This document shows, piece after piece, positions 16,229-35,348 of a stretch of 41,005 nt of DNA. The stretch covers positions 1 to 41,005 of IMG/VR virus record IMGVR_UViG_3300046463_000557. One strand, written 5' to 3'. Made by a program: the position numbers and the translations under genes. The notes under the pieces were generated by a model, which did no database searches, was not told the origin of the DNA, and saw only the letters and a list, made by a program, of their open reading frames with translations. Source of the stretch: a virus. Within the stretch, counting starts at the first letter, position 1, and every line of letters starts with the position of its first letter.

Positions 16229-16231
16229 CTT

Positions 16232-16941
16232 CTAAATCCTCGACCCTATGGTTTGTCCAGCCATCTGCTTGAGTAAGTGAATGCCTCCCTCATCTCGCTC
16301 TGCACTCTGGGCCGCTATCGCCGGGGCGCTCATCTTCGCGATGTTTCCAATCTCGACAATGAGCTGCTTGCGGTAGGCGGTCGCACCTTCGGAACTCTGG
16401 GAGCTGGCCGACACCGTCAGGGTCCGCATATCCTTTTGCGCCGAGATCCGATCGACGTTCTCGTGAAACAGCCAGAAGCGCTTCATCGTCCAGCCGAGAA
16501 TCCGATCGTCGTCGTAGCCGTAGAAGTGCGCGACCCGGCAAAAGAGGAACCCGAAATCGAGCTCCTCGAGTGCCGGCTGCGTCAGTTTCCCGAGGCGCCC
16601 TCGTCGGTCTCGCTGGCGGCGGCAGCAGCAGCAGCGGCGGTCTCAGCTTTCTCGACGTCGTCGCCGCGAATGAAGGCGGTGATGGTGTTCAGTTGCTCCA
16701 GCGAGCAGGCCGTCAGCGTCTCGCGCGAGACTTCAGGCACGCTGCGCACGATCATGTCCACCGCTGCGTCCACCTGATCGGCAACGGTCGCGCTCGGGTC
16801 GTCCGCGAGCTTTTGGGCGATGCGCGCCGTCTCGATGAAGTTGGCGACCGTCAGGGCCGGCACTTCATACGTCTTGCCGCCGAGAACCAGTTCGCGCTTG
16901 TCCTGACCGCTCAGTGCGTCCAGATTCAGAATCTTTGCCAT
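16232..16941 (-). CDS. Tail assembly chaperone, -1 frameshift fusion (GT-like)
   Basis: The frame after the slip is open from the slippery site to 16232 and continues GKLTQPALEELDFGFLFCRV then AHFYGYDDDRILGWTMKRFW. Reading 117 codons in frame zero and 119 codons after the slip gives about 236 residues. The extension has no good start of its own; an internal ATG at 16486 would miss the conserved part. In lambda the minor GT product binds the tape measure and tube protein during assembly, and the gene order here is the same. The frame relation was checked by position: G codons start at multiples of three and the extension one base back. Confidence 0.88.
16582..16941 (-). CDS. Tail assembly chaperone (G-like), frame-zero product
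   Basis: 119 residues starting MAKILNLDALSGQDKRELVL, with a strong GAGGAG seven bases upstream. It contains GGKTYEVPALTVANFIETA and ends in an Ala/Glu-rich tail. It is the short chaperone of the lambda G / GT pair, located between the tube gene and the tape measure. An upstream in-frame ATG at 16956 lacks a good ribosome binding site. The tail ends S-G-N-stop, and the last two codons form the slippery site. Confidence 0.9.
   Translation of the reverse strand: MAKILNLDALSGQDKRELVLGGKTYEVPALTVANFIETARIAQKLADDPSATVADQVDAAVDMIVRSVPEVSRETLTACSLEQLNTITAFIRGDDVEKAETAAAAAAAASETDEGASGN
16585..16591 (-). promoter_or_regulatory. Programmed -1 frameshift site GGGAAAC
   Basis: In frame zero the codons are TCG GGA AAC TGA, giving the heptamer G GGA AAC. 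Lambda uses GGGAAAG at the same place. The stop follows at once, and the -1 frame is open for 119 more residues. Confidence 0.87.
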
Positions 16942-22911: not shown

Positions 22912-24549
22912 TTAGCCTTCCGACTTCGTGGTGAGCGATTCGGTCGCCACCGCGCGGTCGGAGTATTTCTGGAGCTGCTGCTTAGCGCCCTGCTGGGCCT
23001 GAGCCTGAGCCTGCAGCTCAAGCGGACCCGCCGGCGGCCAGTCCTTCAGGTCAGCGAGGATCTTCTCCTTGATGCCCTTCGCAAGCTGCGGGAACAGCTT
23101 GTCGATCACCGCCTTCATCTGCTCCTGACGCAGCGAGTCAGGCGCTTCGATCAGGGACAGGCGCGCGGCAATGTCGAACTCGTCGTAGAGTCCGCGGGTA
23201 TCAAAGTCGTCCGGGTAGGTCACATACTGCTGATCCTCGGCGAGCTTTTCGCCGTTCCAGAGCGCGACCAGCGCCGCGATCTTGTTCTCGATCGACTGCA
23301 GTGAATCCGCCTTGGCTGCCAACAGAGCATTCACTCGCTCGAAGTCGTAAGCCTTGGCTACACCGGAGCTGTTGTCGATCCCGAGCGAGTTGTCCTGTTT
23401 GGTGCGCTCGCCTGCGAGACCAACGGTGTGGTAGATCTCGTTGATGATCTTGTGGATCACCGCGAGGATCATCTGGGCCTGTTTCGGGTCCGGGGAAATG
23501 TATTTCGGTTCAGCGCCGCCATCACCGTCGTAGAGGAAGATGCGCTTGGTGCCCATCTCCATCATCTTCGTGTAGTTGTCGTCGCCCGGCATCATGCCCT
23601 GCGCCGGCATCGCCAACTGGCTGAAGGTCTGGTCCTGGATGATCGCGTCGAGGTTCGAGAGGTAGTTCGCCACCGCCCGGTCCAGATACGCAATGTCGTC
23701 GATCATCGACGGCGCCACATACAGCTCGTCGGAGATCACGTGGTCAGCCAGAATCACCGGCACGACACCCAGGTCGTGGTTGCCGGCGCCGATCTGCACC
23801 ACCTTCTGCTTCTTGCCCTTGCCCTGCAGTTCGAACAGACGCCACTCCTGCTTGGTCCACAGACGGAAGCGTTGCAGGATCGCGCCGCTCGAATTCAACG
23901 GGTCCGCGTCGTCGCGTGCCGTCTCCTGGATGAGTGCCCAGTTCAGCGCGCCCATGCCGTCGTAGCTGTAGTCGAGCAACTGCTCGGGACCAACCAGATA
24001 CGCGTAAGTCATGACGCCGGCGGCCTTCTCGTCGGCCTTCGTTTCCACGCCGTCGGTCTTCGTGTTATCGACCACGATGCCGATACGGCCCTGGCGGGAC
24101 GTGCGCGAGGCGATCTGGCGCGCGAAGTCCTGGATGCCCAGACCGTTGCGGGTGCTTTTCAGCCAGAACTGCTTGATGCACTCGGGTGCGTCGTTTTCGT
24201 TGCGGGTGATCGCCTGCTTGAACAGATACTTGTTCAGCAGGTCGACGACCTCCTTCGTATGGTTGAAGCGGTAGGCGCGCGCGAGCCGGTCGCTGAATTC
24301 CTTGTCGCCTTCCTTGATGTAGCGGAATACGTTGGTGTCGAACCACTCGCGGCCGCCCTCATACGTTTCTTCGATGAAGTGCCAGTGATTGACGTTCTCG
24401 TCGTATTCGGGATGCCGGCGGGAGATGAGCGCGCGCAGCTTCTTCTGCTCGTCGTCGGCGACCGGTGCGATGCCCATAGCGGCAGCCGAATCGACCTCAT
24501 TCGGGTCGATGGAGAACTGCTCGCCGGCGGTAAAGTGCTTGATGTCCAT
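22912..24549 (-). CDS. Portal protein
   Basis: 545 residues. It contains HPEYDENVNHWHFIEETYEG, a central GRIGIVVDNTKTDGVETKAD, YLVGPEQLLDYSYDGMGALN and a helical C-terminal region ending in Gln-rich sequence (ELQAQAQAQQGAKQQ). These match portal proteins of the DUF4055-like type, as far as I recall. Located between terminase and scaffold. There is no Shine-Dalgarno upstream of the ATG at 24549. A promoter with TTGACA and AATACT places transcription start within a few bases of the ATG, so the message may be leaderless. Confidence 0.88.
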   Translation of the reverse strand: MDIKHFTAGEQFSIDPNEVDSAAAMGIAPVADDEQKKLRALISRRHPEYDENVNHWHFIEETYEGGREWFDTNVFRYIKEGDKEFSDRLARAYRFNHTKEVVDLLNKYLFKQAITRNENDAPECIKQFWLKSTRNGLGIQDFARQIASRTSRQGRIGIVVDNTKTDGVETKADEKAAGVMTYAYLVGPEQLLDYSYDGMGALNWALIQETARDDADPLNSSGAILQRFRLWTKQEWRLFELQGKGKKQKVVQIGAGNHDLGVVPVILADHVISDELYVAPSMIDDIAYLDRAVANYLSNLDAIIQDQTFSQLAMPAQGMMPGDDNYTKMMEMGTKRIFLYDGDGGAEPKYISPDPKQAQMILAVIHKIINEIYHTVGLAGERTKQDNSLGIDNSSGVAKAYDFERVNALLAAKADSLQSIENKIAALVALWNGEKLAEDQQYVTYPDDFDTRGLYDEFDIAARLSLIEAPDSLRQEQMKAVIDKLFPQLAKGIKEKILADLKDWPPAGPLELQAQAQAQQGAKQQLQKYSDRAVATESLTTKSEG

Positions 24550-24611: not shown

Positions 24612-25880
24612 TTAAACAGAAAGCCCGCCAAGCTGCAGACGGCGAACCGGGAACTCGAGGTCGATGCAGTAGCCTGCCGCGTCAGCGGAGTGCTCGGTGC
24701 CGGCGTCCTTGTCGACGTCGCGCGAGCCTGGCTTGTAGATCGTCTGCTCCAGCGACTTGATGAAGTGCTTGCAGGACGGGTCGATGCGCATGCGCACCTG
24801 TCCGTCGGCCGAGCGCAGCATCCGGTTCACAGAGTTGACCCGGTCAGCCACGAGCGGTGACTTGCGGCGGAACTTGATGCGCTTGAAGCCCTTCTCGCGA
24901 AGAATGTCCAGGTCGGTCTCGCCACGCGCGTGCTGCCGCTGGCCGCCGGCCGGGTCAGGGTAGATCGTCATCTGCTTCTGGTGGCGCCAGTATTTCTTCT
25001 CCAGCGCGTCAGCGATCTCCTCGGTGTTCGAGCCGAACTGCACGATCTCGTCCACCGCCCACAGCTCGCCATTATCCTGAAGCTGGAAAATGACCGTGGA
25101 CATAGGGTCGATGTTGAAGTCCATCCCGACCCAGATCGGCAGTTTCGGGTTGAACTCCAGCTTTGCGACGTGGACCGCCCGGTCAAACGGGTAGTAGACG
25201 CGCCCGCTCATCGTCTCGAAGCTCGCCTCGAACTCCTGCTTGTAGGATTTCGGGTCCATGTCGCGGCGTGCGGCCTCGAGCTCCGAGCTTGGAATGAACG
25301 GCGACGTGAAGGTCGGGAACTGCCAGCTCGCCCAGTCGTTGCGGCGCATGCGGCCGTTGGTGTCCAGATACTCCTCGCCGCGCTGGCCGAGCATGTAGAC
25401 GGTGTGCAGGTAGTTGTAGGCTTTGGGCGTGCCGATGAACATCGCGTGGCCGCCCGTGTCCGCGAGCGTCGGGCGCAGCACCTTGGTCCACGTCTCCTCG
25501 CTCATGTCCTGGAACTCGTCGAGCACGAGGAAGTGGATACCCACGCCGCGCAGCGAGTCGGCCTTGTCGGCGCCCTTCAGCTCGATCCGCGTGCCGTTGC
25601 GCAGCGTGATCGTGAGCGTCGTCTCATTGATCTTCTTGATCCACTTCTTGGGCAGCGCGTCGAGCAGGTCGGTCCAGAGAATCTGCTTCGCCATCTTGTA
25701 GGTCGGCGCCACATACCAGACCTTGCGCTTCCTGATCTGCGCGAACTTGATGATGAGCACCTTGGAGAGCTGCGTCTTGCCCCAGCGCCGGCCCGCGACC
25801 ACGACCCTGAAGCGGTGCTTGTCCTGAAACACCATCATCTGCTTCGGATGGAGCGAGAGCGTCGCATTCTTACGCGCCAT
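24612..25880 (-). CDS. terL: Large terminase subunit
   Basis: 422 residues from the ATG at 25880. Walker A is VVAGRRWGKT (about 27-36), Walker B FLVLDEFQDM (about 117-126) with Glu122 as catalytic carboxylate, and coupling motif MFIGTPK follows. The nuclease part begins with WVGMDFNIDPMS near residue 250, giving the first Asp of the RNase H-like site. This motor cuts and pumps DNA into the procapsid. The start overlaps the small subunit gene by 11 bases. Confidence 0.95.
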   Translation of the reverse strand: MARKNATLSLHPKQMMVFQDKHRFRVVVAGRRWGKTQLSKVLIIKFAQIRKRKVWYVAPTYKMAKQILWTDLLDALPKKWIKKINETTLTITLRNGTRIELKGADKADSLRGVGIHFLVLDEFQDMSEETWTKVLRPTLADTGGHAMFIGTPKAYNYLHTVYMLGQRGEEYLDTNGRMRRNDWASWQFPTFTSPFIPSSELEAARRDMDPKSYKQEFEASFETMSGRVYYPFDRAVHVAKLEFNPKLPIWVGMDFNIDPMSTVIFQLQDNGELWAVDEIVQFGSNTEEIADALEKKYWRHQKQMTIYPDPAGGQRQHARGETDLDILREKGFKRIKFRRKSPLVADRVNSVNRMLRSADGQVRMRIDPSCKHFIKSLEQTIYKPGSRDVDKDAGTEHSADAAGYCIDLEFPVRRLQLGGLSV

Positions 25881-26514
25881 CGTCATCCCCGCTTTCGTCG
25901 ACCACGTCGTCAATCTCCGCGACGTCTGCCTCGGCATCCGGCAGGTCGTCCAGCTCGCTTTCGTCGCGCGCGCGCAGCGCCTCGATCTGTTCGGCAGTCA
26001 GTTCGCTGATGATCAGCTCCGGCAGCCCGTCTTCGTCCATGCCGTCGTCGCGGTCCAGACCTAGCACCGCCCAGCGCTCCTCACGGGCCTTCTTCAGGAC
26101 CGTCATCGCCGAGTCGAGCGCCTTGAGGTTGTTGAGCACGGTGGAGAACGCGTGCCCGGCCGCCTTCGCCTGCAGGATCTCGTTCCACGAGAGCTTGGCG
26201 AGGCCGGAGGCCATCTTGTAGTGCTCCTCCTTGGTCTCCTTGATGCGCGCGGCGAGCACCGTGGCGTCATCGATCGACGCCTTTTTGACTTCTTCCTTGA
26301 CCGCGGCCGCGTGCTCAGCCTTCTTCGAGCCGCGCACGATCTCGTATTTCGCGAAGTGGGAGGAAAAGGCGGATTTGTGCTTGCCAAACCGTTTGGCGAG
26401 ATCGACGAGCGTGACTTCGCCGGACTCCCATAGCGCCTCGGCCTCCGCCCACTGCTTCGGGGTGAGGCGGGCATGCTTGCTTTTGGGTGCTGCTGGTGCC
26501 GGTGCCTTCGTCAC
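25870..26514 (-). CDS. terS: Small terminase subunit
   Basis: 214 residues from a GTG start. The N-terminal part has a helix-turn-helix (EALWESGEVTLVDLAKRFGK then HKSAFSSHFAKYE) suited to DNA binding. The middle is a coiled coil (SIDDATVLAARIKETKEEHY) and the C-terminus is strongly acidic (AEADVAEIDDVVDESGDDDG). This architecture is normal for TerS. Start context AAGGACAGGCAGTG is acceptable. The GTG overlaps the stop of a 24-residue leader ORF that spans a terminator, so expression may depend on its translation. Confidence 0.9.
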   Translation of the reverse strand: MTKAPAPAAPKSKHARLTPKQWAEAEALWESGEVTLVDLAKRFGKHKSAFSSHFAKYEIVRGSKKAEHAAAVKEEVKKASIDDATVLAARIKETKEEHYKMASGLAKLSWNEILQAKAAGHAFSTVLNNLKALDSAMTVLKKAREERWAVLGLDRDDGMDEDGLPELIISELTAEQIEALRARDESELDDLPDAEADVAEIDDVVDESGDDDGA

Positions 26515-26585
26515 TGCCTGTCCTTCTGTTTCGCTGTTTCAAAAAAAAAGGGCGCGGAGGTTGGCGCCCATTCGGAGACAAACAT
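26511..26585 (-). CDS. Possible leader peptide ORF upstream of terS
   Basis: A 24-residue ORF (MFVSEWAPTSAP, then FFF, then ETAKQKDRQ) starts about 10 bases after the predicted transcription start. It runs through the intrinsic terminator at 26541-26569 and stops in a GTGA overlap with the terS start. The three Phe codons are the terminator's T run. A weak GGAG lies 11 bases upstream of its ATG. Ribosomes on it would melt the hairpin. Whether it is translated is unknown. Confidence 0.4.
   Translation of the reverse strand: MFVSEWAPTSAPFFFETAKQKDRQ
26541..26569 (-). terminator. Intrinsic terminator upstream of terS (attenuator candidate)
   Basis: Stem GGGCGC/GCGCCC with an 8-base loop, followed on the minus strand by nine T. 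It lies between the promoter at 26601-26629 and the terS start, so it must be read through for terS, terL and portal transcription from this promoter. Confidence 0.85.
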
Positions 26586-26600
26586 GCGAATCAGGGCTCC

Positions 26601-26629
26601 AATGTAGCCGCGGCCGCGGCATTTGTCAA
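26601..26629 (-). promoter_or_regulatory. Strong sigma70-like promoter for the packaging genes
   Basis: TTGACA at 26629-26624, exactly 17 bases, TACATT at 26606-26601. The dyad (copy 8) ends one base upstream of the -35 box. Confidence 0.75.
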
Positions 26630-26630
26630 C

Positions 26631-26644
26631 AGTCAGTTTTGACT
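26631..26644 (-). repeat. Dispersed dyad, copy 8
   Basis: Exact 14-mer with 7-bp arms (ACAGTCA/TGACTGT). It also supplies the last codons and stop (SQN-stop) of the gene at 26633-27025. Confidence 0.92.
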
Positions 26645-27025
26645 GTCTTCTGCGACCACGAGAAAGAGTGCGGCCGCCAGAGCCATCACTTCGTCCGGCT
26701 GCGCAGTCGTCGCTCTGTGCTCGCCATTAAGTTCGAAGCGACACACCCATCCCCCGCCCGGTTCGGGCAGCACTGAGTGCGGGATTTCGCGCTTTGCGAG
26801 CGCTTCTGTCGTCAGTGTTTCGCGCTCGCTGAATCGGGGCGCGACAACCCAGTTGGTTTCGTCGGGCACGACGTCCTTGGCCCAGCACTTGACGATTCCG
26901 TCCTGGATCTCGGCGAGGTAGCCGAGCGCTGCCGCAATGGACCAGTCAATCCGCAGTCGGGCTCTTTCCACGGACTGGGCCCAAGTTGGGTCCGCCTCGC
27001 TTTCCCGGAATTCTTTATCTTTCAT
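26633..27025 (-). CDS. Hypothetical protein, 130 residues
   Basis: Starts MKDKEFRESEADPTWAQSVE. It contains WSIAAALGYLAEIQDGIVKC and a C-terminal GEHRATTAQPDEVMALAAAL. No family recognised; soluble with mixed alpha/beta composition. It is the last gene of the non-structural operon. Its final residues SQN and the TGA stop come from dyad copy 8. Upstream is an AT-rich spacer with a hairpin element that is repeated at 40,628. The start has no clear Shine-Dalgarno; an A-rich leader precedes the ATG. Confidence 0.7.
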   Translation of the reverse strand: MKDKEFRESEADPTWAQSVERARLRIDWSIAAALGYLAEIQDGIVKCWAKDVVPDETNWVVAPRFSERETLTTEALAKREIPHSVLPEPGGGWVCRFELNGEHRATTAQPDEVMALAAALFLVVAEDSQN

Positions 27026-27095: not shown

Positions 27096-27422
27096 TCAGG
27101 AACCCTCGAAAATCTCATCCAGGAGAGCTTCTTCGTCGGAAGCGATAAACGCCGGCCCCGGAGAACTCACCGGAGTGAGGACATAGCCGCGGCCCGCTGC
27201 CGTGATCGAGATCAGCACCCGCTGCCGGTCCCGGCGCTTTTCCTTACCCGTCTTCTCGATCAGCCCGTGCTTGATGAGCGCGCGGATCGAAAACTGGATC
27301 GACGCCTTGGTGGTTTCGTAGTTGATGCGCTCGATGACCTGGTCGAGGTCGCACGCGGTGCCGTCCGGGTTCGCCGCGGCAATCACGCGCAGGAGTTCGA
27401 TCTGTTTGACGGTCAGGTGCAT
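27096..27422 (-). CDS. Winged-helix DNA-binding protein (MarR-like)
   Basis: 108 residues: MHLTVKQIELLRVIAAANPD, then KASIQFSIRALIKHGLIEKT followed by a wing-like GKEKRRDRQRVLISITAAGR. This is the pattern of MarR-type or replication-type winged helices, which bind palindromic DNA as dimers. The ATG follows the stop of the GNAT gene with no gap, so the two are coupled. It is one candidate for the protein that reads the dispersed dyads, though nothing in the sequence proves that. The tail is acidic (EEALLDEIFEGS). Confidence 0.75.
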   Translation of the reverse strand: MHLTVKQIELLRVIAAANPDGTACDLDQVIERINYETTKASIQFSIRALIKHGLIEKTGKEKRRDRQRVLISITAAGRGYVLTPVSSPGPAFIASDEEALLDEIFEGS

Positions 27423-28346
27423 TCAATGGGCTCCCGTGAGCTTGGAGAGGTCAAGCGGCGCGTCCACCGGCTGGTTGTCATACGCGAGCAGCGGAATGCG
27501 CGCGGGGAGCTCCCGCGGCGCCCTGGCATCGACGTCGTAATCCGGGTTGAGGTAGACGCCATAGAGCGGGCTCGCGAAGACGAGCTGCTGGAGTTGCTTC
27601 AGAAGCCAGCCCACTTCCATCCCCTCGATGCGCTCGGCGGCGTCAAAGCGCTTGTTACCCGACTTCTCGCGGCTCGAATTGCGGTAGTAGTAGGCGCGCA
27701 GCTCCGCCACGCACTTCTCGCGGATATGCGCCGGCATCTGCTCGATTTCTTCCGTCACGCCGACATAGTCCGACGGCACCGATTCGAACCAGCGCCGGAA
27801 CAGCTCGAGGCCCGACTTGTATTTCGCACTGGGCCGCGGCCGCACGAAGCGCACTCCGGCCTTGGCGGCGAACGGGTTGAACTTCGACATGGAAGACTGG
27901 AACTCCACGATGCTCGAGCCGGAGAGGCGCATCATGAGGTTCTGCATCCGGTAGGCGATGCCCGCGCCCCGATACATCGTGTCGAGCACCAGGCGGCTGT
28001 TCGTGCAGGCGTTATCGTTCAGCCAGTTCATCCGATACTTGTTGATGAGCTTCGTGTCCATGCCGTTCTGGTTCGGGCGCAGGTGCTTGAACACCTCGTT
28101 GCGGCCCGAGGAGAGCGCGGAGGACACCGTCATGACGCCCACACCGATCGTCTGGTCGCGCAGCACGCACCGGTAGAAGTTCGGCCCGAACGGCAGGTTC
28201 TCCGCCTTGTAGTGGAGCTCGTGCAGCAGATCCCAGTCGGCCTTGGTGCCGCGCTCGACGTAGATTTCCGGCAGCAGCGACAGGCTCACCTTCGAGACCG
28301 CCTGGCGCTCGATCAGCACGTCCGGGTTGTCGACGACGATGGTCAT
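27423..28346 (-). CDS. GNAT-fold acyltransferase-like protein, partner of an ABC ATPase
   Basis: 307 residues. LHELHYKAENLPFGPNFYRC (about 41-60) is followed by a central beta pair DQTIGVGVMTVSS, and SRLVLDTMYRGAGIAYRM (about 117-134) is GNAT motif A with the acyl-CoA loop. VEFQSSMSKFNPFAAKAGVR follows at about 147-166. These segments resemble the acetyltransferase part of cellular ABC-ATPase/acetyltransferase fusions (COG2401, from memory). The matching ATPase is a separate gene 1.4 kb upstream in the same operon. The substrate is unknown; modification of a nucleobase, as by Mu Mom (also GNAT-fold), is a hypothesis. The C-terminus has APLDLSK, echoed in the neighbouring small protein. Confidence 0.82.
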   Translation of the reverse strand: MTIVVDNPDVLIERQAVSKVSLSLLPEIYVERGTKADWDLLHELHYKAENLPFGPNFYRCVLRDQTIGVGVMTVSSALSSGRNEVFKHLRPNQNGMDTKLINKYRMNWLNDNACTNSRLVLDTMYRGAGIAYRMQNLMMRLSGSSIVEFQSSMSKFNPFAAKAGVRFVRPRPSAKYKSGLELFRRWFESVPSDYVGVTEEIEQMPAHIREKCVAELRAYYYRNSSREKSGNKRFDAAERIEGMEVGWLLKQLQQLVFASPLYGVYLNPDYDVDARAPRELPARIPLLAYDNQPVDAPLDLSKLTGAH

Positions 28347-28492
28347 TTTGCGGGCGGCACCTTGGGACGACGCGGCGAGCCCTCGAGCGGCGCCTTCGTC
28401 TTCGACAGGTCGAGCGGCTTGCCCGTCGTCTGGTTGATCTTTTCCGCGATATCCTTCAGCGGGTTGGGTTTCTTAGGCGCTTTGAGCGGCAT
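28343..28492 (-). CDS. Small basic Pro/Lys-rich protein
   Basis: 49 residues starting MPLKAPKKPNPLKDIAEKIN and continuing TGKPLDLSKTKAPLEG. GGAGA lies nine bases upstream of the ATG. The stop overlaps the GNAT start (ATGA). The segment KPLDLSK resembles APLDLSK near the end of the GNAT protein. It is likely disordered and could be a partner or adaptor of the GNAT protein; no family recognised. Confidence 0.7.
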   Translation of the reverse strand: MPLKAPKKPNPLKDIAEKINQTTGKPLDLSKTKAPLEGSPRRPKVPPAK

Positions 28493-28754
28493 TGCGCTTT
28501 TTCTCCATGAATCGTTGATAGAACCAGATGCTCGATGCGATCCCGCAGCACCCGCCGGCAGCGCTCGCGAGAAACGCGTAGAGCGATCCTGACGCGGCCG
28601 CGTGCGCAAAGGTGAACTGACCCACGCTGATGCCGAAGGACGTCACCACGGACGCGATATAGCGCCCCTGATTGACGTTCTTCGACTGCACCCCGAGCAG
28701 AAACACCGACCCGTATGAGGCGGCGAACAGGATGAGCAGCGTGACCAAGGTCAT
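28473..28754 (-). CDS. Small membrane protein, possibly holin-like
   Basis: 93 residues with about three hydrophobic segments: 1-21 (MTLVTLLILFAASYGSVFLL), about 33-53, and about 57-80 (LYAFLASAAGGCCGIASSIW), and a basic tail (YQRFMEKKRNAAQSA). Size and topology would fit a class I holin, but no endolysin is nearby and the gene sits in the ParB/ABC/GNAT operon. A membrane partner of that system is equally possible. It overlaps both neighbours. Confidence 0.75.
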   Translation of the reverse strand: MTLVTLLILFAASYGSVFLLGVQSKNVNQGRYIASVVTSFGISVGQFTFAHAAASGSLYAFLASAAGGCCGIASSIWFYQRFMEKKRNAAQSA

Positions 28755-29152
28755 GTGCAGGCTCTCGCGGCGGCGCTGATGTTTGCCATTGCCGAGCTGA
28801 CCGATGCCGCGGCAGCATCAGTCGAAGCTGCTGAGTTCAGGCACGTCACCGTGGTGCGCGGATCGGCGATGCCAAGCGTATGCGCCCCACCCAGGAAGCC
28901 GCCACCACCGCCCGAATGCCAGCCACCTACCGGTGCGGCCACGCCAGGCGATGCGATGCCCACGCCAATGCCCGGCATGTATTCACCGAGCGAGATGGGC
29001 GTCTTCGGCTTGTCGGCCGCCGGTTGTTTCTGCGCCGGTGCAGCGCCGATCGACTCCAGCTTCTCGCGGATCTGGCTGCGCACGTCGAGGTCCATGTCGG
29101 CACCACCGTCGAGGAATCCCTCGAGCCACCAGACGAACTGTTCGTGCGTCAT
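28751..29152 (-). CDS. Hypothetical protein with phage WL-GF N-terminal motif
   Basis: 133 residues from the ATG at 29152, which overlaps the previous stop (ATGA) and has GGGAG eight bases upstream. The N-terminus MTHEQFVWWLEGFLDG then IREKLESIG resembles a small domain common in phage accessory proteins of unknown function. It is followed by a Pro/Gly-rich region with a GGGGG run (about 95-100) and an Ala/Ser-rich C-terminus ending AARACT. Longer in-frame upstream sequence lacks a good start. Confidence 0.75.
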   Translation of the reverse strand: MTHEQFVWWLEGFLDGGADMDLDVRSQIREKLESIGAAPAQKQPAADKPKTPISLGEYMPGIGVGIASPGVAAPVGGWHSGGGGGFLGGAHTLGIADPRTTVTCLNSAASTDAAAASVSSAMANISAAARACT

Positions 29153-29358
29153 GCCGCGGCTCCCGAGATGCTCAGACAGTCGTAGCACTCCATGCAGCCG
29201 CACGCACGATTGCCCGTCACCGGAGCAGCGCCCGTCGGCGGCAGGTCGTCATCGTCGCGCCGGTCCTTGTCGTTGATCATCTTGACGAGCAGCGCCCACA
29301 GCGCGAGCGCGGCGATCAGAACGAGCGGAAGGCCAAGATAGAAGTCGAGCAGCGTCAT
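29149..29358 (-). CDS. Single-pass membrane protein with Cys cluster
   Basis: 69 residues. One hydrophobic segment (about 5-27, LDFYLGLPLVLIAALALWAL) is followed by an acidic/basic patch KDRRDDDD and a cysteine cluster CGCMECYDC near residue 53. The cysteines could bind metal or be redox active, which is notable next to a thioredoxin gene. The start lies one base after the thioredoxin stop. Confidence 0.75.
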   Translation of the reverse strand: MTLLDFYLGLPLVLIAALALWALLVKMINDKDRRDDDDLPPTGAAPVTGNRACGCMECYDCLSISGAAA

Positions 29359-29359
29359 G

Positions 29360-29725
29360 TCAGAACTCCAGGCGACAGAACTCTTGGCGAACCGGCGTCT
29401 GGTTCAGGCCCAGGTCGGCGAAATATTCTTCGAGCGCCGCGGGCGTGCGATCTCCCGAGAAGCGGCCCTTGGGCACCCCGGCTTCGAGCGTGATGACCGT
29501 CGGCACCGCGCGCACACCAAAGAGAGCGGCGAGCTCCGGCTCGTCACCAGCGTCGACCACGGCAACCGTGAAGCCCCACTTGTCGGCGAGCGCCGCGAGC
29601 TTGGGCTTGAGCTGCTTGCAGGGGCCGCACCACGGCGCGGTGAATGCGACCACGATCGGCTCATCCTTCGACTTTTCGGTGACGAATTCGTCGAACGTGT
29701 GTTTGGTGGGGTTAATGACTGGCAT
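29360..29725 (-). CDS. trxA-like: Thioredoxin
   Basis: 121 residues from the ATG at 29725, with AGGA seven bases upstream. FTAPWCGPCKQLKPKL (about 28-43) contains the active-site CGPC (33-36), and the cis-proline is in VRAVPTVI (Pro75). It would reduce disulfides in the cytoplasm. It overlaps the end of the ABC ATPase gene by 14 bases. Phages use thioredoxins as DNA polymerase factors or ribonucleotide reductase donors, but neither enzyme is in this window. Here its partners may be in the same operon. The C-terminus is slightly extended (VRQEFCRLEF). Confidence 0.92.
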   Translation of the reverse strand: MPVINPTKHTFDEFVTEKSKDEPIVVAFTAPWCGPCKQLKPKLAALADKWGFTVAVVDAGDEPELAALFGVRAVPTVITLEAGVPKGRFSGDRTPAALEEYFADLGLNQTPVRQEFCRLEF

Positions 29726-30374
29726 CTTTGTATCCTTCGGGGGTGTAGGCGATCTCGATCTTTTCCCGATACCGTTTCTCGATATAGACGGAAGGCGCCA
29801 GGTCCGCGCGCAGGTCGAGGTGAGTGGTGGCAACAATGAGCGTCGCGCCGGCCGCGCGGGCAACCTTCTGCATGTTGAAGGCGATCACTTTCGCCGTATC
29901 CCGGTCGACCACCGCGAGAAACTCGTCGGCAACCCAGACCTTGGCGTTCGCCTCAATGAGCTTGGCAAGGCGGAACCGGTAGCGCTGCCCGTCCGAGAGC
30001 TCGGAAGGCTTGCGCACGAACAGGTAGGCGTCGTTCAGCCCGGCGATCGAGAGATAGCGAAGCGCGTCGTTGGTGTCGGTGCCGATCTGGTTGATGAGCG
30101 GGCAGTCCTGGAACTGGATCTCGTCGATATCGCACACGACGTCGCCGGCGGCCTTCATCTGCGCCTTCAGCTCGCGCAGGACAGTCGACTTGCCCGAGCC
30201 GGACTGGCCGGTCACGTAGACGACGTCGCCCTGCTCAATGTCGATCGGCTGGTTGTCGAAGACGACGAATTCCTTGTCGTCCAGGCCCAGGCCGAACGCT
30301 TCAGCGATCTCCAGCACGCGGTCGGTGCGCTCCACGGTCGCCGTGAAGCGCTTGTTGACGATGTATTGCGTCAT
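29712..30374 (-). CDS. Stand-alone ABC-type ATPase
   Basis: 220 residues from the ATG at 30374 (ATGA overlap with the previous stop). Walker A GQSGSGKST (56-64), signature LSDGQ (126-130), Walker B VWVADE (Asp150, Glu151), H-loop THLD (His185). No membrane domain is encoded with it. The N-terminus RVLEIAEAFGLGLDDKEFVV then QPIDIEQGDVVYVTG resembles the ATPase half of ABC/acetyltransferase fusion proteins rather than a transporter subunit. It probably dimerises on ATP and acts on DNA, RNA or a protein. Partner: the GNAT gene at 27423-28346. Confidence 0.88.
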   Translation of the reverse strand: MTQYIVNKRFTATVERTDRVLEIAEAFGLGLDDKEFVVFDNQPIDIEQGDVVYVTGQSGSGKSTVLRELKAQMKAAGDVVCDIDEIQFQDCPLINQIGTDTNDALRYLSIAGLNDAYLFVRKPSELSDGQRYRFRLAKLIEANAKVWVADEFLAVVDRDTAKVIAFNMQKVARAAGATLIVATTHLDLRADLAPSVYIEKRYREKIEIAYTPEGYKDASH

Positions 30375-30733
30375 TCCTCGATGCCCTGCCGGTTGATCGA
30401 TGCCCACCAGGCCATTGCCTTGGGGTTGTCCTGCCATACCTGACACAGACCCCGCGCGCCGAACAGCGTGAAGTCTTCCTCGTCGTTCTCGTCCTGGAGG
30501 TCGAAGTAGACATGGATCGCGTGCATCACTTCATGCAGGAAGGTGTCGGCCAGGTTCTGCGCGGTCTGGTGCTGCGCCACGCGAATCTTGTGGCTCACCT
30601 GATTCATGTGACCGAAGCTGCCGGTGGCGACCGAATCCCCAAAGTCTTCGATTTCCACCGTGAACCGGAAGTTGCCGATCTTCAGGGAGGTCGGGATGCC
30701 GCGATAGGGGTTGAAAGCAGTTTTGCCGGTCAT
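30371..30733 (-). CDS. Small HExxH putative metalloprotein
   Basis: 120 residues from the ATG at 30733. TFLHEVMHAIHVYF carries HEVMH (His67, Glu68, His71) with a further His74, the zinc-site pattern of minimal metallopeptidases. NPYRGIPTSLKIGNFRFTVE precedes it. Phage proteins of this size with HExxH next to ParB/ABC genes are familiar to me but not functionally described. Protease activity is a guess from the motif. Longer upstream sequence is out of character and overlaps a membrane peptide gene. Confidence 0.82.
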   Translation of the reverse strand: MTGKTAFNPYRGIPTSLKIGNFRFTVEIEDFGDSVATGSFGHMNQVSHKIRVAQHQTAQNLADTFLHEVMHAIHVYFDLQDENDEEDFTLFGARGLCQVWQDNPKAMAWWASINRQGIEE

Positions 30734-30735
30734 GG

Positions 30736-30888
30736 TCAGTCGTCGCTCACTATCTGCAGGACGAGCAGCAGCGCCAGCAGCTCGTCGCCCGACAGGGACA
30801 CTGGCTCGCGACGCAGCGCCCACACCGCGCCCAGCGCCACGAGGACCAGTAGGGAAACCAGCAGTATCGGAAGCAGCATCGAGTGCAT
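30736..30888 (-). CDS. Small membrane peptide
   Basis: 50 residues from an ATG at 30888 with GAGG six bases upstream (an ATG at 30894 is also possible). MHSMLLPILLVSLLVLVALG forms one transmembrane helix, followed by a charged stretch RREPVSLSGDE and a second hydrophobic run LLALLLVLQIVSDD. The stop TGA lies two bases before the HExxH gene start. It is hidden in another frame of a longer spurious ORF. It may anchor the operon's proteins at the membrane. Confidence 0.65.
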   Translation of the reverse strand: MHSMLLPILLVSLLVLVALGAVWALRREPVSLSGDELLALLLVLQIVSDD

Positions 30889-30921
30889 CGTCATCCTCGC
30901 GTTTCGGGTGGGTGAAGGTTT

Positions 30922-31572
30922 TCATGCGTTTGCCACCTCTTTTGCATGGGCGACAAGCGCGTCGGCGCCGGTCAGTCCGGTTTGTGCTTCGATCGTTGCC
31001 ATGAAGCGCGCGAGATGGCGCTCGTCGCGACCGGCGATGCTCTTGAAGCCCAGCACCTTGTCGAGCCGCACTTCGCGCGCATCGGTCTCCTCGACCGCCT
31101 TGGTCGCCGAGAGCGACTGTTCGCGCACCACCTCGTCCAGATCCTCGACGAACGGGGCGTCGTTGATTTCGCCCAGGTCCGCGGTCATGAACTCCAGCTC
31201 CTTCGCGTCGAAGATGCCTTCGAGGCTCACTTCGAGCGAGGCGAGTTCTTCCTGCAGCAGGCGCGCGTCGATCTCTGAGATGGCAACGCGGTTATCGGCG
31301 AGACGCAGCGCCTTGGCTTCGTCTTTCGAGAGGTCATCGCGAACCACGACCGGAACGTGCTTCAGCACAGGTTCAAGTAGCGATGCGAGGCGCCGGCCGT
31401 GGCCCGCGATGATGGTGCCGTCGGCTTCGGTGACGATTGCGGTCGTCCAGCCGAACTTGTCGATGGACTTGCGGATCTTGGCAATCTGGGCCGCGTCGTG
31501 AATCTTCACGTTGCCCTCGTAGGGCTTCAGGAAGTCGATCGGCTTCAGTTGCGGCTTGAATTCTTGGCTCAT
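30922..31572 (-). CDS. ParB-like N-domain protein 1
   Basis: 216 residues. LKPYEGNVKIHDAAQIAKIR, then SIDKFGWTTAIVTEADGTII and AGHGRRLASLL (about 53-63) are the ParB/Srx N-terminal fold with box-II-like GHGRR, and LRLADNRVAISEIDARLLQE follows. It lacks the ParB helix-turn-helix and C-terminal dimer domain, so it is not a partition ParB. Such domains bind nucleotides and often occur with DNA methylases or nucleases. The start overlaps the stop of the zinc-ribbon gene (ATGA). Confidence 0.88.
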   Translation of the reverse strand: MSQEFKPQLKPIDFLKPYEGNVKIHDAAQIAKIRKSIDKFGWTTAIVTEADGTIIAGHGRRLASLLEPVLKHVPVVVRDDLSKDEAKALRLADNRVAISEIDARLLQEELASLEVSLEGIFDAKELEFMTADLGEINDAPFVEDLDEVVREQSLSATKAVEETDAREVRLDKVLGFKSIAGRDERHLARFMATIEAQTGLTGADALVAHAKEVANA

Positions 31573-31760
31573 GCGGCGATCTGCTCCAACCAGATGGTCT
31601 GTTCTTCGTCAGGCTTGTCGAGCGCCTGCAGCTTGCGCAGGTCTTCGTCGTAGCCGTCGTCCTCGCCGTTGTGCTCGTAGTTCGAGCCCTCGTCGCAGGA
31701 TCGGCACTGGAACGGGTCGTATTCCAGGTTCAGGCAGGTGCGGCAGAAAGCGAACTTCAT
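31569..31760 (-). CDS. Small zinc-ribbon protein
   Basis: 63 residues. FCRTCLNLEYDPFQCRSCDE gives two CxxC pairs (Cys6/9 and Cys19/22), a single zinc knuckle, followed by an acidic helix (DEDLRKLQALDKPDEEQTIW). The pattern DPFQCRSC followed by GSNYE is familiar from small conserved phage proteins of unknown role. Its start follows the Tad2-like stop by one base, and its end overlaps the ParB-like start. No Shine-Dalgarno is visible, suggesting coupling. Confidence 0.8.
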   Translation of the reverse strand: MKFAFCRTCLNLEYDPFQCRSCDEGSNYEHNGEDDGYDEDLRKLQALDKPDEEQTIWLEQIAA

Positions 31761-31761
31761 G

Positions 31762-32046
31762 TCAGAGCGTGATCCAGTCGTTGGCGAGCATGTCGGTCTG
31801 GGAGGGAGCCCAAGGCACAAAGCAGTTGTCGGCTGTCTTCATGCCGATCCACGGCAGCTTCGAACAGCCGAGCGCGTGAACCGAGCCGCGTTCAGCATCG
31901 GGGTTGTAGTCGTAGCCCTGCACCAGCACGAGCCACATGCCGCTGCCGTTCCAGCCGACTCTGGCGACGCGCATACCGGCCTTGATTGCGTCGAGCGCGT
32001 CGCTGAAGTCGAGGCCCACGCCGCTGCGTTCATTACGGTCTTTCAT
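31762..32046 (-). CDS. tad2-like: Tad2-like anti-Thoeris protein (DUF2829)
   Basis: 94 residues. FSDALDAIKAGMRVARVGWN then GSGMWLVLVQG, and CFVPWAPSQTDMLANDWITL at the C-terminus, match the DUF2829 family. Characterised Tad2 members form tetramers that sequester the cyclic nucleotide 1''-3' gcADPR used by Thoeris defence. The hallmark W-x-PS-x-x-DMLA-x-DW is complete. Length is normal for the family. Actual ligand here is unknown; some family members bind other cyclic nucleotides. Copy 9 of the dyad lies seven bases upstream of the ATG. Confidence 0.9.
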   Translation of the reverse strand: MKDRNERSGVGLDFSDALDAIKAGMRVARVGWNGSGMWLVLVQGYDYNPDAERGSVHALGCSKLPWIGMKTADNCFVPWAPSQTDMLANDWITL

Positions 32047-32053
32047 GTTCGAT

Positions 32054-32067
32054 ATTCAGTTTTGACT
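32054..32067 (-). repeat. Dispersed dyad, copy 9 (one mismatch)
   Basis: ATTCAGTTTTGACT. It carries the last codons and TGA stop (SQN-stop) of the ParB-like gene 2. Confidence 0.85.
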
Positions 32068-32718
32068 GGTTCGGTGGGTAAGCAGGTGAACCAGCGCGTT
32101 ACCGGCGTTGGTCAGGGAATCGTCTTCGGTGAAGCGCTGCGTCTTCATGGTGGACTCGATCAGCTCCGTGATCGTCGCGACGTCCTCGACAGGCACCTTG
32201 AAGCGCATCACCTGGTGGGTCTGGACAGCCTTCTCTTTCGGGAGAACGCTCGGGCTCCCGTCATCGTCCGGTATGTCTAAATCATCCAGCGCTATATTTA
32301 CTGACGAGAAGATCGAAGCGAAATCCGCGTCGGTGTAGGGCATGAACGTCGCGAGGTCGTCGGGCGAGCCCAGACCGTCCAGAAGCTCCGCCAGGCGCAG
32401 CGTGTCGTCGTTACCGTAGCGGCCGTTGTCGACGAGGCTGATCTCCTTCGCGCGCTTGTCGTCAAGGCGACCGAGGTTCGTCACCGGCACCTGCGGCACC
32501 TTCAGACGGATCGCAGAGTCGCGCCGGTGCGCACCGCCCAGGATCTCCAGCGTGCCGTCGGCCAGCTCACGCGCGATGATCGGCTTGAACAGCCCCAGCC
32601 GCCTGATCGACTCATCGATCTTGGCCTCATTTTCAGGGCTGACAACGTTGGTGTTCCAGCCGTTGTGCTTCAGTTGCTCGGGGGCAACGTGCAGCGTCTG
32701 GAATTGGGCTTTGCTCAT
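32056..32718 (-). CDS. ParB-like N-domain protein 2
   Basis: 220 residues. LKHNGWNTNVVSPENEAKID, then SIRRLGLFKPIIARELADGT and ILGGAHRRDSAIRLK form a ParB-type N-domain with box II as GAHRR. A helical region and a C-terminal acidic/mixed domain (RFKVPVEDVATITELIESTM) follow. It differs from protein 1 beyond the shared fold, so the two may pair with different partners. First gene of the leftward operon; starts opposite the helicase across a 72-base divergent region with dyad copy 10. Confidence 0.87.
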   Translation of the reverse strand: MSKAQFQTLHVAPEQLKHNGWNTNVVSPENEAKIDESIRRLGLFKPIIARELADGTLEILGGAHRRDSAIRLKVPQVPVTNLGRLDDKRAKEISLVDNGRYGNDDTLRLAELLDGLGSPDDLATFMPYTDADFASIFSSVNIALDDLDIPDDDGSPSVLPKEKAVQTHQVMRFKVPVEDVATITELIESTMKTQRFTEDDSLTNAGNALVHLLTHRTSQN

Positions 32719-32731
32719 GCGCTTCCTGCGG

Positions 32732-32759
32732 TTTTGGATAGTCAGTTTTGACTTATACT
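32732..32759 (+). promoter_or_regulatory. Divergent promoter region with dyad copy 10
   Basis: TATACT (32754-32759) on the plus strand directly abuts the dyad, as TATAAT does in copy 1; a -35 box (TTTTGG, 16-base spacer) is weak. A protein bound here could control both the helicase operon and the ParB operon. Confidence 0.45.
32740..32753 (-). repeat. Dispersed dyad, copy 10
   Basis: Exact 14-mer in the centre of the divergent region between the ParB-like gene 2 and the helicase. Confidence 0.92.
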
Positions 32760-32790
32760 ACGCCTAACTTATAAAGATGGCAACCAAGCT

Positions 32791-34347
32791 ATGACACGCG
32801 CGACCATTGCATACAACGCGACCACCGCCAAGCTGATCGAGACCGACCGGGCGCTCAAGCTCGAAGTCCAGCGCCTCATCAGCTACAAGGTGGCGGGTGC
32901 AGATAACACCGACGCGTTCAAGCGCGGCGGCTGGGACGGGCGCAGCTCCTTCTTCGACTTCAGGAAAGGCACCTTCCCCGCCGGCTTCGTGCATCTGGTC
33001 ACGGCGGGGCTACGGCGCGCGGGGCATGAAGTGGCTCACGTCACCAAGCCCGCACCTGAGCCGCTTTGTCCAGTGAACCCGAAGATCGACAGCTTCCCGG
33101 ACGATCCCCGCTACGACTATCAGCCCGAAGTGGTCGACCGGCTCGTCAAGCACCGCCAGATCATCGCGCAGGTCGCAACCGGTGGCGGCAAGTCGCGGAT
33201 CGCACGTCTTTGCTTCGCCCGCATCCGGCGCCCCACCCTCTTTCTCACGACGCGCTCGATCCTCATGTATCAGATGAAGGACGCGTTTGAGGAGATGGGC
33301 GTGAAGTGCTCGGTGCTCGGCGACGGTCAGTTCGGGACGGTCACAACCGGTGCCGACGGTGTCGAGCGTCACTCGGTGAAGATGATGAGCGTCGGCATGG
33401 TTCAGACGCTTGTTTCGCGCTTGCAAGAACCGTGTCCAGACGATGACGTCGAGAAGCAGAACGAGCAGACGCGCATCAGGAACAAGACGATCGCGCTCCT
33501 GGAGAAGTTCGAGTTCGTGATCGGTGAGGAAGCCCACGAGGCGGGCGGCAACAGCTACTACGAGATCCTGCGCCACTGCAAGAACGCGCACTACCGGCTC
33601 GCGCTCACGGCCACGCCGTTCATGAAGGACGACGAGGAATCGAACATGCGCCTGATGGCCGCGTTCGGTCCGATCGGCATCAAGATCAGCGAGAAGATGC
33701 TGATCGACCGCGGCATCCTCGCCAAGCCGTGCTTCAAATACGTCCAGTTGCAGCAGAAGCCGCCGAAGCTCTTTCGCGGCACGACCTGGCAGGCTGCCTA
33801 CCGCCTGGGCATCGTAGATAACGCCGAGCGCAACGCTCACATCATCTACGAGGCTCGCCGGGCGGCCGCATTGAAGCAGCCGGTGATGATTCTCGTGCAG
33901 CAGACGCGCCACGGTGAGCTTTTACGGGAGGCACTCACCGCAAAGGGCATCAGCACTGAGTTTCTGCAGGGCGAGAACAAGCCAAAGGAGCGGAAAAGCG
34001 CGCTCACCAGGCTCGGAAACGGTGCGACCCAGGTGCTCATCGGCACCACCATTCTGGACGTCGGTGTGGACGTGCCGGCGGTGGGTCTGGTGATCCTGGC
34101 CGGCGGTGGAAAAGCGGAAGTTGCGCTTCGCCAGCGTATCGGGCGCGGTGCGCGCGCGAAGAAGAAAGGGCCGAACGTGTTTCTGGTGGTCGACTTCGAC
34201 GATCCGTGGAATTCCCACACGAAGGAGCACGCCAAGCAGCGCCGCGCGATCGTGGATGCGACGCCGGGCTTTGCCGAGAACGTGCTGCCGGCGGCTGCCG
34301 ACTTCGATTTCGTCGGACTGGGGCTCGCGACTCGCCGGGCCGCGTGA
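32791..34347 (+). CDS. Superfamily 2 DNA helicase (UvsW-like)
   Basis: 518 residues. An N-terminal domain of about 100 residues (LKLEVQRLISYKVAGADNTD, then GWDGRSSFF) resembles the UvsW/Hef-associated N-domain. Motif I is ATGGGKSR (129-136), motif II EEAH (about 246-249, first residue E not D), motif III LTATPF (about 270-275) and motif VI QRIGRGAR (about 446-453). UvsW-type enzymes unwind recombination intermediates and R-loops. First gene of the short plus-strand operon, starting opposite the ParB-like gene across the divergent dyad promoter. Shine-Dalgarno is weak. Confidence 0.93.
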   Translation: MTRATIAYNATTAKLIETDRALKLEVQRLISYKVAGADNTDAFKRGGWDGRSSFFDFRKGTFPAGFVHLVTAGLRRAGHEVAHVTKPAPEPLCPVNPKIDSFPDDPRYDYQPEVVDRLVKHRQIIAQVATGGGKSRIARLCFARIRRPTLFLTTRSILMYQMKDAFEEMGVKCSVLGDGQFGTVTTGADGVERHSVKMMSVGMVQTLVSRLQEPCPDDDVEKQNEQTRIRNKTIALLEKFEFVIGEEAHEAGGNSYYEILRHCKNAHYRLALTATPFMKDDEESNMRLMAAFGPIGIKISEKMLIDRGILAKPCFKYVQLQQKPPKLFRGTTWQAAYRLGIVDNAERNAHIIYEARRAAALKQPVMILVQQTRHGELLREALTAKGISTEFLQGENKPKERKSALTRLGNGATQVLIGTTILDVGVDVPAVGLVILAGGGKAEVALRQRIGRGARAKKKGPNVFLVVDFDDPWNSHTKEHAKQRRAIVDATPGFAENVLPAAADFDFVGLGLATRRAA

Positions 34348-34704: not shown

Positions 34705-34974
34705 ATGGAACAGGACAAGCAGACGCGCTACACCGTTGTCGTCGGCAAGCTCGCGCAGGCACGGCTCGCTTCCATCGCGAAGCAGTTCAAGATCAGCCAG
34801 GGCGCGGTGATGGAGGTCATGATCGAGAACGTGGACGTGCAGGCGCTCGAGGAACAGTTCAGGGCGCGGCGCGAACAGAAGGTCCAGAGCCGCGGCAGCA
34901 AGACCGAGCTGCTGGAGAAGATCAAGAAACTCACGCCCGAGCAGCGGGCGTATCTCGAAAGTCTGGGTAGCTGA
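34705..34974 (+). CDS. Small ribbon-helix-helix-like DNA-binding candidate
   Basis: 89 residues starting MEQDKQTRYTVVVGKLAQAR. The strand RYTVVV is followed by two helices LASIAKQFKISQGAVMEVMI, the layout of ribbon-helix-helix proteins, then a basic coiled coil (FRARREQKVQSRGSKTELLE). ATG at 34705 has AGGGAG eight bases upstream; a GTG at 34696 is poorer. Its stop overlaps the next ATG by one base. Such proteins bind short repeats, so it is a candidate dyad reader, unproven. Confidence 0.78.
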   Translation: MEQDKQTRYTVVVGKLAQARLASIAKQFKISQGAVMEVMIENVDVQALEEQFRARREQKVQSRGSKTELLEKIKKLTPEQRAYLESLGS

Positions 34975-35348
34975 TGCGGGTGCTCGTCTGTGGCGGGCGC
35001 GACTTCGAGGATCAGGACTTCACCGATTGGGCGCTTGATGCGGTTCACGCACGGCGCCCAATCTCGTTGGTGATCGAGGGAGGCGCACGGGGCGGTGATC
35101 GCTGTGCGCGCAAGTGGGCGATCTCCCGCGGCATCCCATACCATACTTTCGAGGCCGACTGGCAGCGTTACCGACTCCGCGCCGGCTTCGTTCGAAACCA
35201 GCAGATGCTCGACGAGGGCCAACCCGACATGACGCTTGCCCTGCCTGGTGGCAGGGGCACCACCGACATGGTGCTGAAGTCACGCGCGGCCGGAGTGAAG
35301 ACGAAGACGCTCTGGAAGCTCCACGAGCAATACCTCGCTACCCGTTGA
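34974..35348 (+). CDS. DUF2493 / SLOG-family protein
   Basis: 124 residues. VLVCGGRDFEDQDFTDWALD and GGARGGDRCARKWAISRGIP then RNQQMLDEGQPDMTLALPGG are the nucleotide-binding Rossmann features of DUF2493 in the SLOG superfamily. Members bind nucleotide-derived ligands; no enzyme activity is established for this subfamily, as far as I know. It ends with an 11-base tail-to-tail overlap with the lipoprotein gene on the other strand. Confidence 0.88.
   Translation: MRVLVCGGRDFEDQDFTDWALDAVHARRPISLVIEGGARGGDRCARKWAISRGIPYHTFEADWQRYRLRAGFVRNQQMLDEGQPDMTLALPGGRGTTDMVLKSRAAGVKTKTLWKLHEQYLATR

Follow-up and report, generated by a model that had tools for sequence, protein, structure and literature searches.

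A GNAT-fold protein, an ABC-type ATPase and two ParB-domain proteins form a conserved phage gene set beside the terminase, with relatives in archaea and planctomycetes

Which genes of a crowded phage operon work together, and on what might they act? The question is raised by IMG/VR virus record IMGVR_UViG_3300046463_000557, a virus fragment of 41,005 nucleotides (the window, in what follows, is this whole 41-kb stretch). Its minus strand carries genes for an ABC-type ATPase, a protein with the GNAT acyltransferase fold, two ParB-domain proteins (ParB1 and ParB2) and a number of small proteins, and an earlier note, made from the letters alone, suggested a DNA or RNA modification or protection system. 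We find that ParB1, ParB2, the ATPase (ABC), the GNAT protein and a winged helix-turn-helix protein (wHTH), standing beside the terminase genes, are the functional unit, and that the remaining genes are optional cargo.

An invariant core ahead of the terminase genes

Profiles built from the window proteins were searched against 80 IMG/VR loci. Counts refer to the 59 loci that span the interval from the helicase gene to terS, or to the 39 left after thinning to a non-redundant set. ParB1, ParB2, ABC, GNAT, wHTH and the terminase small subunit (TerS) are jointly present in 59/59 loci (39/39 after thinning), and the first five stand in a fixed order ahead of TerS and the terminase large subunit (TerL) in all 59. 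Such joint occurrence is far beyond chance. The earlier note had named a failure of the genes to co-occur in other phages as grounds for giving its proposal up; the GNAT, ABC and ParB genes do co-occur across phages.

The other genes come and go. Among the 59 loci, the thioredoxin is present in 47, the zinc ribbon in 47, the HExxH protein in 31 and the Tad2-like protein in 9, while the open reading frames (ORFs) at 29149-29358, 28751-29152 and 28473-28754 are found in 7, 8 and 26 loci, respectively. The HExxH, thioredoxin, zinc ribbon and membrane genes, which the earlier note placed in the shared operon, are therefore better described as optional passengers, and a single pathway built from all genes of the operon was rejected because so many of them (these and the Tad2-like gene) are variable. 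The Tad2-like gene at 31762-32046 had gone unnoticed, as had the continuation of the conserved set through wHTH to TerS, TerL and portal, the divergent helicase, and the terminase link itself, which is the strongest contextual signal. Features are listed in minus-strand order, from ParB1 to GNAT and, downstream of GNAT, through the winged helix and one ORF to TerS, TerL and portal.

32791-34347, plus: divergent helicase bordering the module (DNA match to annotated helicases)
32755-32783, minus: promoter-like site TTGCCA-17-TAGTAT upstream of ParB1 (pattern scan only)
32056-32718, minus: ParB1, ParB-N-domain protein, core (Pfam ParB_N 6e-6; phrog_723 8e-63)
31762-32046, minus: Tad2-like protein (Thoeris anti-defence 2), optional (PF11195, E 1.7e-23)
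31569-31760, minus: small zinc ribbon protein with two CxxC pairs (CRTC...CRSC), optional (sequence)
30922-31572, minus: ParB2, ParB domain of the type that heads phage DNA methyltransferases, core (phrog_930 6e-75)
30736-30894, minus: short hydrophobic (membrane) ORF, optional (ORF call and hydropathy)
30371-30733, minus: HExxH metalloprotein, perhaps SprT-like, optional (HEVMH; phrog_1233 6e-16)
29712-30374, minus: ABC-type ATPase, non-transporter, core (PF00005 1e-12; complete ABC motifs)
29360-29725, minus: thioredoxin, optional (PF00085 8e-21; WCGPC)
29149-29358, minus: small membrane ORF, optional (ORF call and hydropathy)
28751-29152, minus: ORF with no assigned function, optional (ORF call)
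28473-28754, minus: small membrane ORF, optional (ORF call and hydropathy)
28343-28492, minus: short ORF with a 4-base overlap with the GNAT start (ORF call)
27423-28346, minus: GNAT-fold acyltransferase with helical C-terminal domain, core (phrog_886 6e-124; predicted fold)
27096-27422, minus: winged-helix protein (wHTH) abutting the GNAT gene, core (HTH_27 1.3e-6; phrog_900 6e-24)
26633-27025, minus: ORF with no assigned function, last in the run (kept in 38/59 loci)
26550-26569, minus: strong terminator-like stem-loop with T9 tail between module and terS (pattern scan only)
25870-26514, minus: TerS (position and conservation; site of an annotated DNA-binding gene in nickie)
24612-25880, minus: TerL (GRRWGKT, VLDEF, nuclease acidic residues; aligns with annotated TerL of relatives)
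22912-24549, minus: portal protein (ortholog of the annotated nickie portal)

All genes named in the earlier note were found on the minus strand where it had placed them. The ATGA-type overlaps it described are present as 4-base overlaps at the zinc ribbon/ParB2, HExxH/ABC and 28343-28492/GNAT junctions and on both sides of the ORF at 28751-29152, with the small membrane ORFs that flank it. Its description of an ATPase with all ABC motifs and no transporter partner is likewise borne out: Walker A lies at residue 56 (GQSGSGKS), the signature motif at 126 (LSDGQ), Walker B at 146 (VWVADE) and the H-loop at 182 (ATTH), and no permease gene was found. Three short module ORFs have a strongly hydrophobic stretch, and an ABC transporter was rejected because such short, non-conserved ORFs are the only membrane partners on offer. 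Membership of the acyltransferase in the GNAT superfamily follows from phrog_886, the predicted fold, and a profile match to families with members that Pfam classes as acetyltransferases; searched directly against Pfam, the protein matched no family reaching E 0.1. A loop of the protein, R126-G127-x-G129, is conserved.

The Tad2-like protein, predicted to be Tad2 by sequence, scores 83.4 bits against PF11195 (cut-off 25), and in two relatives (L013, L044) its gene has another position within the operon. The HExxH protein matches SprT-like proteins at 0.011, under the cut-off. The helicase stands at the module border in those relative loci that extend far enough. A promoter-like site, TTGACA-17-TACATT, followed about 30 bases on by a GC stem-loop and nine T before terS (26550-26629, minus; pattern scan), might serve the packaging genes as an attenuator.

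The window is part of an SSU5/nickie-like siphophage of about 110 kb. By protein comparison, the named phages closest to it are those of Rhizobium, Pseudomonas (nickie, hairong, phiK7B1), Stenotrophomonas, Klebsiella and Escherichia, together with Salmonella phage SSU5, and nearly all have records of 100-122 kb; much closer relatives occur in IMG/VR, with GNAT identity up to 95%. The GNAT gene is also encoded on 905 PLSDB plasmids, and those among the matches listed are about 105-107 kb, a size that fits phage-plasmids. An Rfam scan of the module region found no RNA, and no tRNA genes were found in the window. Elsewhere in the window, a 1653-aa frame at 11315-16276 (plus) lies antisense to a 1624-aa frame at 11354-16228 (minus) over nearly its full length and is probably a high-GC shadow ORF. 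The 124-aa Rossmann-like protein at 34974-35348 (plus), for which the PDB sequence match is weak, resembles, in our reading, the SLOG/DUF2493 type.

Fused relatives and the terminase link in cells

The earlier note had likened the ATPase and the GNAT protein to the two halves of cellular ABC/acetyltransferase fusions, and this holds. The halves are fused in archaea, in some planctomycetes and in other phages; the window, with ABC and GNAT as separate genes, does not itself have the single chain that characterizes the ABC-GNAT family. A GTDB scan with an ABC alignment found archaeal proteins (Bathyarchaeota, Thaumarchaeota, Thermoproteota) with ABC first and GNAT second, as in the phage fusions, and Planctomycetota in which ABC and GNAT are adjacent or fused. 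The window ABC shares 42-48% identity with the ABC half of the archaeal fusions. In pairwise profile comparisons, whose E-values are not database-wide, the window GNAT family matches the GNAT part of archaeal and planctomycete fusions at E 6e-24 over 154 columns, free-standing planctomycete GNATs at E 8e-16 over 245 columns that include the C-terminal domain, and fused phage GNATs more weakly, at E 1e-7. The GNAT profile had no match among PDB sequences. In a tree of ABC domains, the SSU5-like clade that contains the window pairs with the archaeal ABC-GNAT clade (92/92 support), apart from the other phage fusions.

Unrelated phages that encode a single protein, ABC first and GNAT second, include Leptospira LE4, Pasteurella Pmp13, Nonlabens P12024S, Rhodococcus Jace, Arthrobacter EastWest, Gordonia Axumite and Pseudoalteromonas SL25, among others, and in several of the fused phage proteins the GNAT part scores above the Pfam cut-off. 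Seven unrelated phages have a ParB gene that overlaps the ABC(-GNAT) gene at its start, and in most of the seven a terminase gene follows within a few kb (TerL in LE4, Pmp13, Axumite, MismyG and SL25; TerS in Jace). In Axumite (L089), the interval from the fusion to the terminase holds a gene with the annotation tRNA-methyltransferase, at 1805-2452.

The same neighbourhood recurs in cellular genomes, where gene calls were mechanical and metagenome-assembled genomes (MAGs) can be contaminated. A TerL-like gene lies within 5 kb on the same strand at 12/15 archaeal and 35/42 planctomycete ABC-GNAT loci; for planctomycete loci with enough flanking sequence on both sides, TerL is near ABC-GNAT in 23/24. 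The cellular TerL is always on the strand of ABC-GNAT, and in Bathyarchaeota the two are often directly adjacent or overlapping. TerL occurs here in four forms (one archaeal; planctomycete types 1, 2 and 3), and all keep the Walker-type and nuclease acidic residues. A class of Gemmata/Isosphaera-type loci without TerL was considered and rejected, as a Terminase_6C match and alignment reveal a further TerL form upstream. Among the conserved small genes of the planctomycete loci L137-L178, a helix-turn-helix (HTH)/sigma-like gene precedes ABC in 17 loci, an HTH-like gene of 112 aa precedes ParB in 9, and a gene designated cX stands between ParB and TerL in 17; these are candidates for a terminase small subunit.

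ABC-GNAT was present in 35 of 199 Planctomycetota genomes sampled. TerL type 1 (E <1e-100) was found in 12 genomes, all of them among the 35 carriers (hypergeometric 1.5e-10, uncorrected for relatedness). Type 2 was found in six, again all carriers, which makes 18/18 for the two families. The TerL seeds came from ABC-GNAT neighbourhoods, and no matches at strong E-values were found in genomes that lack ABC-GNAT. Because ABC-GNAT and TerL are about 31 kb apart in genome G163 and on separate contigs in G148, their co-occurrence is not merely adjacency.

When 112 neighbours from archaeal loci and 94 from planctomycete loci were scanned with PHROGs, the terminase large subunit was the sole recurrent head or tail family among the 25 most shared. 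Recurrent portal or capsid genes were not found within 8 kb of the planctomycete loci, whose neighbours include host-like proteins (ThiF, CxxCxxCC, HTH/sigma-like); many of the neighbours are common to several loci. Across ten planctomycete genomes tested with Phage_capsid and Phage_portal, six matched neither, G030 had weak partial capsid matches only, and G001, G005 and G158 had capsid or portal matches well away from the module or on a different contig. Phage_portal had no match in seven archaeal genomes, where portals may be too divergent. The Bathyarchaeota MAG G003 (2.5 Mb; loci L123 and L179-L185) has ABC-GNAT in nine places, several of them accompanied by TerL and by small genes in common, and its copies are a multi-copy element. 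Four of these loci encode a protein like YqbQ/XkdQ, which we take to be tail-related, and an initial view of the cellular loci as free of other phage genes was corrected on that account.

Possible functions of the module

An AlphaFold model of the window GNAT (predicted local distance difference test, pLDDT, 87.7) was compared with solved structures by Foldseek. TmcA is the best match, Kre33 ranks fourth and Mom fourteenth; for an independent planctomycete GNAT model, RimI comes first and NAT10 third. In a search of viral structures, the ABC-GNAT protein of LE4 came within the top ten, as did a Mom protein. Regarding the ParB proteins, the ParB1 family profile matches ParB/Noc/Spo0J structures at 2e-11, and the ParB2 family also matches them. 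The N-terminal part of ParB2 matches phrog_498, annotated 'DNA methyltransferase', at 1.5e-31, and ParB2 matches PADLOC MTase_II at 4e-18. Judged by these matches, ParB2 belongs with the ParB domains that head phage DNA methyltransferases.

Our favoured reading, held tentatively and as yet short of probable, is that the core is an ATP-dependent, ParB-guided base acylation machine linked to terminase action. Computation establishes the gene set, the homology of the two halves to the fused protein, the ABC motifs, the GNAT fold and the recurrent terminase link; we infer a DNA substrate, an acyl modification, a clamp function and an effect on packaging or restriction. The ParB-domain proteins, like their ParB/Noc/Spo0J clamp relatives, would load on the phage genome and mark it. 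The ABC ATPase, lacking a permease, would pair with GNAT as it does covalently in the fusions and might use ATP to open or hold DNA, while GNAT would move an acyl group from CoA onto the exocyclic amine of a base. The mark might protect phage DNA from restriction, guide the terminase in its choice of DNA for cutting or packaging, or both. It speaks for base acylation that the structure searches with both GNAT models, which are independent of each other, bring up ATP-dependent RNA-base acetyltransferases (TmcA, Kre33, NAT10) among the leading matches. Cleavage at the phage P1 pac site depends on adenine methylation, a precedent for a base mark read by a terminase. The recurrence of the module beside the packaging motor in unrelated viruses, archaea and planctomycetes suggests that marking and cutting or packaging work together. 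We favour base acylation over protein acylation, RNA modification and partition.

Several points weigh against this reading. The fold search is unspecific, as RimI and dopamine and amine acetyltransferases score alike. Enzymes with a GNAT fold have substrates as different as proteins, tRNA and small molecules, and with TM-scores (structural similarity) this low the fold does not single out one of them. The alignment of the window GNAT with Mu Mom by hhalign is non-significant (E 0.13 and 0.05). In the phages, the constant place near the terminase could stem from a late-gene order that is itself conserved, and in the window a terminator-like site (pattern scan) parts the module from terS. TerL is absent from the archaeal loci L125, L131 and L132, whose flanks are complete, and from the planctomycete locus L174, and some Bathyarchaeota copies near a YqbQ-like protein may be proviral.

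Membership in the Mom family was rejected on the direct profile tests, which included a search with Mom profile PF25680 that gave no match to the window GNAT; the Mom relatives retrieved by a scan were all Mu-type copies at 85-100% identity, from which no better profile could be built. The DNA or RNA modification proposed in the earlier note is upheld in part: a published GNAT+ABC prediction and the kinship of ParB2 agree with it, while the analogy to Mom extends to the fold and no further.

A restriction-type alternative overlaps with base acylation and applies to planctomycetes and perhaps archaea. Here ABC-GNAT-ParB would mark self DNA and the TerL-like motor-nuclease would cut unmarked DNA, the phage module being the same machinery put to packaging choice. 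Planctomycete TerL motifs are intact, and the scarcity of capsid and portal genes described above (none recurrent within 8 kb, neither found in 6/10 genomes, remote from the module in three others) fits such a role, as does a patchy distribution (35/199 and 30/200 genomes) with several copies in some genomes. We consider it rather unlikely, given that no restriction activity is known, that PADLOC has no such system, and that the conserved host neighbours in planctomycetes fit another chromosomal role too. The broader proposal that ABC-GNAT-ParB-TerL is one unit of viruses and cells, in which a base-acylation mark is written or read in concert with the terminase motor-nuclease, serving packaging choice in phages and capsid-less marking and cutting in planctomycetes and perhaps archaea, is possible, though doubtful.

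The constant terminase neighbourhood could also be explained by a protein acylation switch, in which GNAT, steered by ABC and ParB, acetylates terminase, portal or a host protein and so times packaging or takeover. RimI, the best match of the planctomycete GNAT model, is a protein acetyltransferase, and phages use GNATs on host RNA polymerase (PMC7824862). We judge this unlikely, because it leaves unexplained both the ParB proteins of DNA-methyltransferase type and the need for an ABC/ParB pair.

Less probable still is RNA modification, whereby ABC-GNAT would use ATP to acylate tRNA or another RNA, as TmcA does on tRNA-Met cytidine, and shield phage translation from RNA-targeting defence. TmcA is the top solved-structure match, Kre33 and NAT10 recur, and an ATPase joined to a GNAT is the TmcA design; the TmcA ATPase, however, is helicase-like rather than ABC, the ParB and terminase partners indicate DNA, and the window has no tRNA gene. 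Partition or copy control, with ParB proteins segregating a prophage, is suggested by the 905 PLSDB plasmids (about 105-107 kb for those listed) and by the match of the ParB fold to ParB/Noc/Spo0J, but is very improbable and was rejected as the main role, since the genes conserved at the locus include a ParB N-domain and no ParA, and unrelated phages and chromosomes carry the trio too.

Comparison with known systems

Base acylation can be set beside several described systems. TmcA, Kre33 and NAT10, cytidine N4-acetyltransferases, join a GNAT domain with an ATPase and act on a nucleobase amine, and they stand high in both structure searches; they differ from the window proteins in having a helicase-type ATPase, an RNA substrate and a single chain, and the TM-scores are low. 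Phage Mu Mom (PF25680), which modifies adenine in DNA, shares the GNAT fold, and Mom structures are among the Foldseek matches of the window protein; there is no significant profile match, and Mu mom has no neighbouring ABC ATPase or ParB gene. Phage ParB-DNA methyltransferase fusions contain a ParB part with which ParB2 aligns, whereas ParB2 has no methyltransferase domain.

Another such system is the MK0520/COG2401 type, an ABC-type ATPase joined in one protein to a predicted acetyltransferase. Both halves of the archaeal fusions are homologous to the window ABC and GNAT, which are one chain in archaea, ABC then GNAT, and split genes in the window phage; a gene of Escherichia phage Cyrano is annotated MK0520-like.

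The closest precedent is itself a prediction. A passage in PMC7824862 (Iyer 2021), citing Iyer et al. 2013 (doi 10.1093/nar/gkt573), describes a phage GNAT-superfamily enzyme with an ABC ATPase as a predicted, uncharacterised acyl modification system for a nucleobase. The window shares with it the GNAT-superfamily enzyme and a linked, motif-complete ABC ATPase without permease; relative to the description in that passage, it differs in its separate ABC and GNAT genes, two ParB genes, winged-helix gene and fixed place before the terminase. In the literature searched we found no experimental characterisation of the system and no mass-spectrometry data on acylated bases from carrier phages, and a nanopore study of phyllosphere phages (PMC11780129) covered no identifiable carrier. 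Nor was a report of terminase coupling found in that literature, which did not take in Iyer 2013.

To this prediction, which has stood as such for over a decade, the present analysis adds the split form with two ParB proteins, the invariant core and the coupling to terminase in cells, so that a core and a terminase tie are now defined. Capsid-less cellular terminases would surprise the fields of phage packaging and of defence systems, and terminase-based marking and cutting, if true, would be a kind of restriction-modification not described before. The SSU5-like phage-plasmids, with the GNAT gene on 905 PLSDB plasmids, make the GNAT+ABC reading directly open to experiment.

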